Source: Aeropyrum sp. (GTDB lineage: Archaea > Thermoproteota > Thermoprotei_A > Sulfolobales > Acidilobaceae). Taken from it: a stretch of DNA of 32,018 bases. The notes beneath the pieces are model-generated. The model ran no database searches, was not told the origin of the DNA, and saw only the letters and a program-made list of their open reading frames with translations. A program made the translations under genes and the position numbers. Shown one piece after another: positions 26,319 through 27,522 of the stretch. Position 1 is the stretch's first letter. The number at the start of each line of letters is the position of its first letter. The stretch spans positions 1 through 32,018 of the forward strand of contig WAKF01000037.1 in the NCBI GenBank assembly GCA_015523465.1. The letters run 5' to 3'.

Positions 26319-27302
26319 TTAGAGTCTTCTAGGGATTAAGCCTAGTTTTAGAGCTTTACTTCTGATGTACTCCCTCACTTTAGGGCCCATAGGCTCTCCT
26401 AACGCTTTTTTAGTGAGCCTGCAAAAACTACATACATCGCCACCAGTTATTAAACCACAGTATTTACACCTACCTATTTTACCCTGGGGTTTTGGATAAT
26501 CTTTTATCCTGAGGGCTAGTTTACTCATCATCTGAATCTTCATGCCAGGCCTCTCCTCCTCAAGACTGTTAACTACTTCTTTAAGCTTCACCTCCATCTG
26601 CCTGTGGTCTACGAACGGGCATTCTTCATGAAGGAACGGGAGTCCCTTTAGGTAGGCATACAGGAATGATTCCTTCTCGTAGACCAGGTAAAGGGGCCTT
26701 ATTCTGCCTATGGCAGCTTCCTCTACGCTTTCAGTTTTAGGTCCTAGCTTACTTATAGCCTCTAGGTCCTGCGACAGAAATGATTTGAGATTGTATACTG
26801 CCAGGTCGTCTGCATTATGGCCTAAAGCTACAGCATCCGCCTCCACTTCCACTGCTGCAGCATTAGTTATGTACCTCTTAACCATACCGCATACGCTGCA
26901 TGGAGGCCTCCTACCCTTATTAGCGAGTTCGGGTATGGTAGTCCCTAAGACCTCTGATAGCGGAACTTCTATTAAAGGTACTTCAAGCTTTTTCGCTAGT
27001 TCTTCAGCGGCCATCTTACTCTTAACTGAGTACTCGTATATTCCCAAGTCGATGTGGACTGCTACTAGCTCGTACCCGAACTCGCTTCTAAGGGCGGCTA
27101 AAGCTCCAAGAAGCGTTGAGCTATCTTTTCCGCCTGACAAAGCTACTAGTATCCTGTAGCCCTTACCCACCATTTTATATTTTCTAAGAGCCCTCCTAAC
27201 CTTATCCTCAATAAACTCTATGTAGTGATCCCTGCAGAGATACTTGCGCTGGTATCTTATATAGGCTATAGCAGGCTTACTGCAAATACTACACCTTGGC
27301 AC
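26319..27302 (-). CDS. ttuA: tRNA 2-thiolation protein TtuA (Fe-S PP-loop sulfurtransferase)
   Basis: 327 aa enzyme that thiolates U54 (or U34 in Ncs6-like relatives) of tRNA, using sulfur from a ubiquitin-like carrier. An N-terminal zinc finger (C4, C7, C23, H26) comes first. The PP-loop SGGKDS is at 56-61. The Fe-S cysteines are C135, C138 (PPCSVCG) and C228 (HEECPF), the TtuA triad. The C-terminal zinc finger is CKYCGLITGGDVCSFC. GTG 27302 is required to keep the first zinc cysteines. It overlaps the preceding ubiquitin-like gene by 14 nt, which supplies its carrier. The TtuA assignment is favoured over NcsA by the terminal zinc fingers. The exact tRNA position is inferred. Confidence 0.88.
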   Translation of the reverse strand: MPRCSICSKPAIAYIRYQRKYLCRDHYIEFIEDKVRRALRKYKMVGKGYRILVALSGGKDSSTLLGALAALRSEFGYELVAVHIDLGIYEYSVKSKMAAEELAKKLEVPLIEVPLSEVLGTTIPELANKGRRPPCSVCGMVKRYITNAAAVEVEADAVALGHNADDLAVYNLKSFLSQDLEAISKLGPKTESVEEAAIGRIRPLYLVYEKESFLYAYLKGLPFLHEECPFVDHRQMEVKLKEVVNSLEEERPGMKIQMMSKLALRIKDYPKPQGKIGRCKYCGLITGGDVCSFCRLTKKALGEPMGPKVREYIRSKALKLGLIPRRL

Positions 27303-27522
27303 CTCCGGATAGCACCCTTACAATCTCAACTCTCTCTCCAGGCTTAACAACGTCCGTTTCTAAAAGTGGGGTTCCGTCCCTAATCACCACAGCAGTTTCA
27401 GAGCTAAGCCCAGCCATTTTAAGCAAATCAGAGACCTTCACAGGCTTTTCAACCTCAAATTCGACTTCCTTACCTTCAGGCAGCATCTTAGCCTTGATTA
27501 GCCCCCGAGCCACACAAACCAC
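27289..27522 (-). CDS. Ubiquitin-like sulfur carrier (ThiS/MoaD/TtuB-like) with residues after GG
   Basis: 77 aa beta-grasp protein, the likely sulfur donor to TtuA. It has the usual pattern: strand, strand, then helix VSDLLKMAGLSSETAVVIRDGTPL, then VVKPGERVEIVRVLSGG. Unusually, the expected C-terminal GG is followed by AKV before the stop, so processing would be needed to expose the thiocarboxylate-forming glycine. The GG codons (GGA GGT) form a Shine-Dalgarno-like GGAGGTG that includes the ttuA GTG start, so the overlap imposes the extra residues. Start GTG 27522; GTG 27513 or ATG 27486 are alternatives. Confidence 0.82.
   Translation of the reverse strand: MVCVARGLIKAKMLPEGKEVEFEVEKPVKVSDLLKMAGLSSETAVVIRDGTPLLETDVVKPGERVEIVRVLSGGAKV

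Follow-up and report, generated by a model that had tools for sequence, protein, structure and literature searches.

An Aeropyrum sulfur carrier joined to ttuA extends past its diglycine and is a candidate capped precursor for a JAMM protease

The gene for a SAMP2/ThiS-type ubiquitin-like sulfur carrier in Aeropyrum sp. encodes three residues beyond its diglycine, and the carrier is rather probably a capped precursor that a JAMM protease would open before adenylation and sulfur loading. The gene is located at 27289..27522 on the minus strand of the window (the whole 32,018-nucleotide stretch analysed, contig C37 of genome G000) and overlaps by 14 nt the gene for TtuA, a tRNA 2-thiouridine synthetase (26319..27302, minus strand, 327 aa, GTG start). 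Its 77 aa product (VVCVARGL...VRVLSGGAKV) may start at GTG 27522 or GTG 27513, a choice that leaves the C-terminus, SGGAKV, unaffected. The codons of Gly73 (GGA, 27306-27304) and Gly74 (GGT, 27303-27301), together 27301..27306, are internal rather than C-terminal and are followed at 27289..27300 by Ala (GCC), Lys (AAG), Val (GTG) and the stop TAG (27291-27289). The GTG start of ttuA (27302-27300) consists of the GT of Gly74 and the following G, and both glycine codons with this start read GGAGGTG (27300..27306), so that the GG-AKV end, the overlap and the inclusion of the ttuA start in GGAGGTG described in the original prediction are all borne out. Retention of GGAGG as a Shine-Dalgarno ribosome-binding site for the window ttuA was ruled out, as GGAGGTG includes the start codon itself; at the related loci L032 and L033 described below GGAGG may serve ttuA in this way.

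The carrier scored 41 bits against Pfam SAMP2 (PF21965, cut-off 27) and 23.7 bits against ThiS (PF02597, cut-off 22.5). Its phmmer matches among solved structures included SAMP2 (5LDA_B) and TtuB (5ZTB/5GHA), and its closest solved relatives by sequence were P. furiosus PF1061 and SAMP2 (1RWS, 5LDA) and Thermus TtuB. The AlphaFold model was a beta-grasp (mean pLDDT 83.6), and its Foldseek matches included the TtuB chain of a structure with TtuA (5gha_F; TM-score 0.80, normalised by target length). Both family profile and fold are those of SAMP2/TtuB carriers. Residues 74-77 had pLDDT below 50, and this disorder, expected of a cleavable tail, argues for a capped precursor. TtuA has the N-terminal zinc finger and PP-loop thiolase domain of its family (Pfam TtuA_LIM_N and ATP_bind_3, PF22082 and PF01171, both above cut-off) and matched PH0300 TtuA (5MKO, E 3e-60) and also Thermus TtuA by phmmer. 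The carrier gene thus adjoins a thiolase gene in a genome that also encodes an E1. The primary product, with AKV after GG, lacks the terminal diglycine of this carrier type while the processed product would have it. Other genes between 22315 and 31806 of the window encode Snf7/ESCRT-III-like, CdvA-like and eIF5A-like proteins, the large and swivel subunits of aconitase X, a ROK kinase and a HerA-type ATPase.

In a TtuA tree the window (GGAKV) and its three nearest relatives, L031 (GGG), L032 (GGCMSLG) and L033 (GGRVG), formed a single clade (support 99/98). The sister group consisted of the same-genus genomes G027, G075 and G087 (support 100/98), in which the tail codons are missing and every carrier is GG-stop. 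Judged from the tree, the tail arose recently and is specific to this lineage, and its confinement to one clade beside a GG-stop sister argues for the capped precursor. L031 has an extra glycine codon (GGC GGT GGC TAA) with its last two residues still GG; it looks like an intermediate and, since its terminal GG is intact, may be uncapped and need no processing. The window shares this extra codon and its ttuA starts one glycine codon later than usual, but the stop-forming bases of ttuA codons 2-3 have been lost (GCT AAG to CCA AGG) so that reading runs on to the TAG. In the GG-stop loci L005, L006 and L085 a TAG is already present two codons downstream. L032 and L033 have longer insertions and a single C-terminal glycine, and among the four clade members only the window lacks a glycine at the C-terminus. 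The contigs of G104 hold two ttuA loci (GGG and GGRVG) and the bin may mix two species.

The comparison covered 104 distinct carriers (model E-value of 1e-9 or below), nearly all from Thermoproteota. Among 60 distinct ttuA-adjacent carriers, 48 were GG-stop, seven had residues past GG and five ended in SG or AG (RSAG-stop at L023, L025 and L211, RSSG-stop at L088 and L090), while the end motif GGTGGNTA[AG] occurred in half of them (30/60). Clear caps elsewhere in the phylum were found at L153 (LGEV), L164 (RVRI) and L012/L014 (L). An overlap of this kind is also present in at least 24 GG-stop relatives, with the ttuA alignment starting 2 nt ahead of the end of GG. The start codon of these relatives is within the glycine codons and the carrier stop arises from ttuA codons 2-3, where GTG GCT AAG is read in the carrier frame as GGT GGC TAA. 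Since the GG-stop relatives share it, the overlap is a widespread layout in which the carrier stop normally falls inside the shared bases, and it leaves the extension unexplained. A role of the overlap in forcing the tail was therefore rejected, and the original suggestion that it may hold the extension in place did not stand.

The carrier body is under purifying selection according to the substitution rates, with a dN of 0.06 and a dS of 0.61 between L032 and L033 and a dN of 0.21 for the window against L031, a pair for which dS was close to saturated. All four clade members retain SGG, the residues that follow it vary, and the GG pair was invariant in a 16-row carrier alignment. The first glycine codon differs among the four (GGA, GGC, GGG and GGG), which indicates that the amino acid is kept rather than the base sequence. 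Conservation of SGG ahead of differing residues, and a dN well below dS, argue for a capped precursor. No second ThiS-, SAMP2- or Urm1-type protein was found in the 97% complete genome, so ubiquitin-like (Ubl) sulfur transfer of these families, if operating, must use this carrier, and its standing as the only ThiS/SAMP2-type protein found points in the same direction.

A search of the genome for an E1-like enzyme and a JAMM protease, as originally proposed, found both. A full-length E1-like protein with the conserved motifs is encoded at G000:C32, and a JAMM at G000:C23:35471-35764 has the complete E...HxH...S..D signature (Glu, both His, Ser and Asp). The best solved relative of this JAMM was PfJAMM1 (5LDA chain A, E 4e-22). 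The carrier and the JAMM thus match two chains of a single crystal structure, SAMP2 with JAMM1, with SAMP2 among the two best matches of the carrier. The presence of an E1 with conserved motifs and a JAMM with all catalytic residues, and the match of both partners to 5LDA, argue for the capped precursor. The same JAMM is present in same-genus species without the cap. It is therefore probably older than the cap, which agrees with a scenario where the cap could be tolerated because a JAMM able to cut SAMPs was already there. Its presence in uncapped species also argues that the enzyme is not specific to capped carriers.

For SAMP2-type carriers alone, JAMM accompanied 5/8 carriers with a tail versus 33/72 without (p=0.47, not significant). 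With all Ubl tails pooled, JAMM was found in 14 of 18 tailed and 24 of 62 other genomes (p=0.006), a value that counts related genomes as independent and includes incompletely surveyed MoaD-like proteins and that is not taken as proof. No JAMM was found in G103 (tail CMSLG), a genome only 76% complete, and G360 (tail RVRI) had a weak JAMM match only. These two genomes, the non-significant association and the still GG-ended L031 count against the capped precursor. A second JAMM (G000:C1:45-512) occurred among 48 family genomes only in G000 and G104, both with extended carriers. It was set aside as a dedicated cap protease, since the genes around it point to a different function and G000 and G104 are closely related. 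At L069:45-3428 (G000:C1) and L070 (G098/G104) this gene adjoins a kinase-like protein and two proteins without a Pfam match, which we guess to be PP2C-like and vWA-like.

Capped carriers processed by JAMM proteases have been described. The Streptomyces carriers PtmS2 (GG-MV) and PtmS3 (GG-C) depend on the JAMM PtmS1 for their use, and the same paper cites QbsD as the earlier case (PMC6006322), while CsJAMM of Caldiarchaeum cuts its own SAMP precursors in vitro (PMC6043591); both precedents argue for the capped precursor. QbsE/QbsD of thioquinolobactin synthesis are grouped here with PtmS2/PtmS3 as capped bacterial sulfur carriers. Like PtmS2/PtmS3 and QbsE, the window carrier has a ThiS-like fold and a few residues past GG, and an intact JAMM is encoded in the genome. 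The bacterial carriers serve natural-product synthesis whereas the window carrier gene overlaps ttuA, and ptmS1 lies in one cluster with ptmS2 whereas the JAMM here is located elsewhere (C23, with the window on C37). Clustering of JAMM with the carrier is frequent in bacterial cases and is not essential. As in Caldiarchaeum, an archaeal SAMP appears as a precursor with a JAMM in the genome, although cleavage of the window carrier is a prediction; the gene number of CsJAMM adjoins that of one SAMP (C0702/C0703), and the window cap is instead a recent gain within a GG-stop lineage. The closest solved relatives of the carrier, JAMM and TtuA are P. furiosus SAMP2-JAMM1 (5LDA) and Thermus TtuB-TtuA (5GHA, 5ZTB); in the SAMP2 and TtuB chains the match reaches GG at or next to the C-terminus with no cap, unlike the window carrier. 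A 2010 survey of archaeal Ubls placed GG at the C-terminus, and the portion consulted says nothing of tails (PMC2948915). In the literature searched, mostly outside subscription journals, capped carriers linked to ttuA were not described for this group. What is new is this instance, with the recent origin and fast change of its tail and its link to ttuA, while the kind is already known.

Under the capped-precursor explanation, the open reading frame would make the organism's TtuB/SAMP2-type sulfur carrier in capped form, and a JAMM metalloprotease, most likely the PfJAMM1-like enzyme at G000:C23, would cut behind Gly74 and remove AKV. The exposed glycine would be adenylated by the E1-like enzyme and then thiocarboxylated, and the carrier would pass its sulfur via TtuA to tRNA. 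Removal of the tail by a JAMM is inferred, and so is delivery of sulfur to TtuA by the trimmed carrier. The cap itself would have originated by the gain of a codon at GG and loss of the stop from ttuA codons 2-3, so that the frame stays open until the next in-frame TAG. The original interpretation thus holds for a real extension that covers GG and for the presence of both enzymes, and fails for the overlap as what keeps the extension.

Several other explanations were weighed. The original prediction could have fallen to an error hiding a stop directly after GG; the genome is split into 92 contigs, but a sequencing or assembly error is extremely improbable, as three relatives on other contigs also run past SGG with different residues in each, the ttuA frame stays open across the same bases and, with GCC after Gly74, any stop would take three base changes. 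A different peptidase such as a carboxypeptidase might trim the tail, with JAMM acting only in deconjugation. A disordered tail of three residues would be an easy substrate for such an enzyme and JAMM is found whether or not the cap is present, yet the enzyme would have to halt exactly at GG, as a Ubl-binding JAMM does by design, and precedents for cap removal exist for JAMM; we consider this alternative unlikely.

The free GG might no longer be needed if, in a habitat rich in sulfide, TtuA draws on sulfide itself and the carrier persists as a TtuA partner or is decaying. In vitro, Thermus TtuA can work with sulfide when TtuB is missing, and tRNA thiolation in a methanogen proceeds without Ubls (PMC11323500), while the dN well below dS, the kept SGG and the retained E1 speak against a carrier independent of a free GG. 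Because GG and the carrier body stay conserved, this appears the less likely course, with a chance as small as that of the other peptidase. Acceptance of the extended C-terminus by the E1 is conceivable in this clade, where the last residues are GG in L031 and one glycine in L032/L033 and the E1 pocket could be altered. The window carrier, however, ends in Val and has no C-terminal glycine at all, and known E1-like enzymes adenylate a C-terminal glycine, which makes this reading highly improbable.

Related loci carry further variants. At L086:1501-2694 (G123:C33) the carrier frame continues into that of TtuA (SGG-SARCGKC..., about 400 residues) across a junction one base shorter than the usual carrier/ttuA overlap. 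Either a real deletion has produced a Ubl-TtuA fusion in nature, or the assembly is wrong at this point; G123 encodes an intact JAMM, and if the fusion is real a cut after GG would be needed to release both proteins. A second, MoaD-like Ubl (...VMPHISGG) of the same archaeal family has a variable tail of 2 to 17 residues past GG in all seven copies (L091, L092, L093, L097, L098, L099 and L100). A eukaryote-like ubiquitin operon was present in a Desulfurococcales archaeon MAG (L072:1753-4105, G100/G125), with an E1 (ThiF), a ubiquitin-family protein ending in GG, an E2 (UQ_con above cut-off) and a JAB/Rpn11-like protease. L071:1730-3948 (G016:C5) encodes in a row a JAMM protein, a weak E2-like protein and an E1 whose N-terminal stretch may be a Ubl domain.

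Eukaryotes make ubiquitin as fusions to ribosomal proteins that are cut apart, to which the G123 arrangement can be likened. A tentative and rather doubtful extension is that the clade gained a zymogen-like step in tRNA thiolation, its only carrier being inactive until a JAMM acts, with G123 carrying a carrier-TtuA polyprotein cut at GG. If true, the switch would be recent enough for capped and uncapped species to be compared within one genus. A cap within a genus beside GG-stop sisters, on what is apparently the only carrier, would offer a natural before-and-after comparison and opens the question of which role of the archaeal JAMM came first, deconjugation, which rendered caps harmless, or maturation. 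The JAMM is thereby given a predicted job that may be tested with two small proteins.
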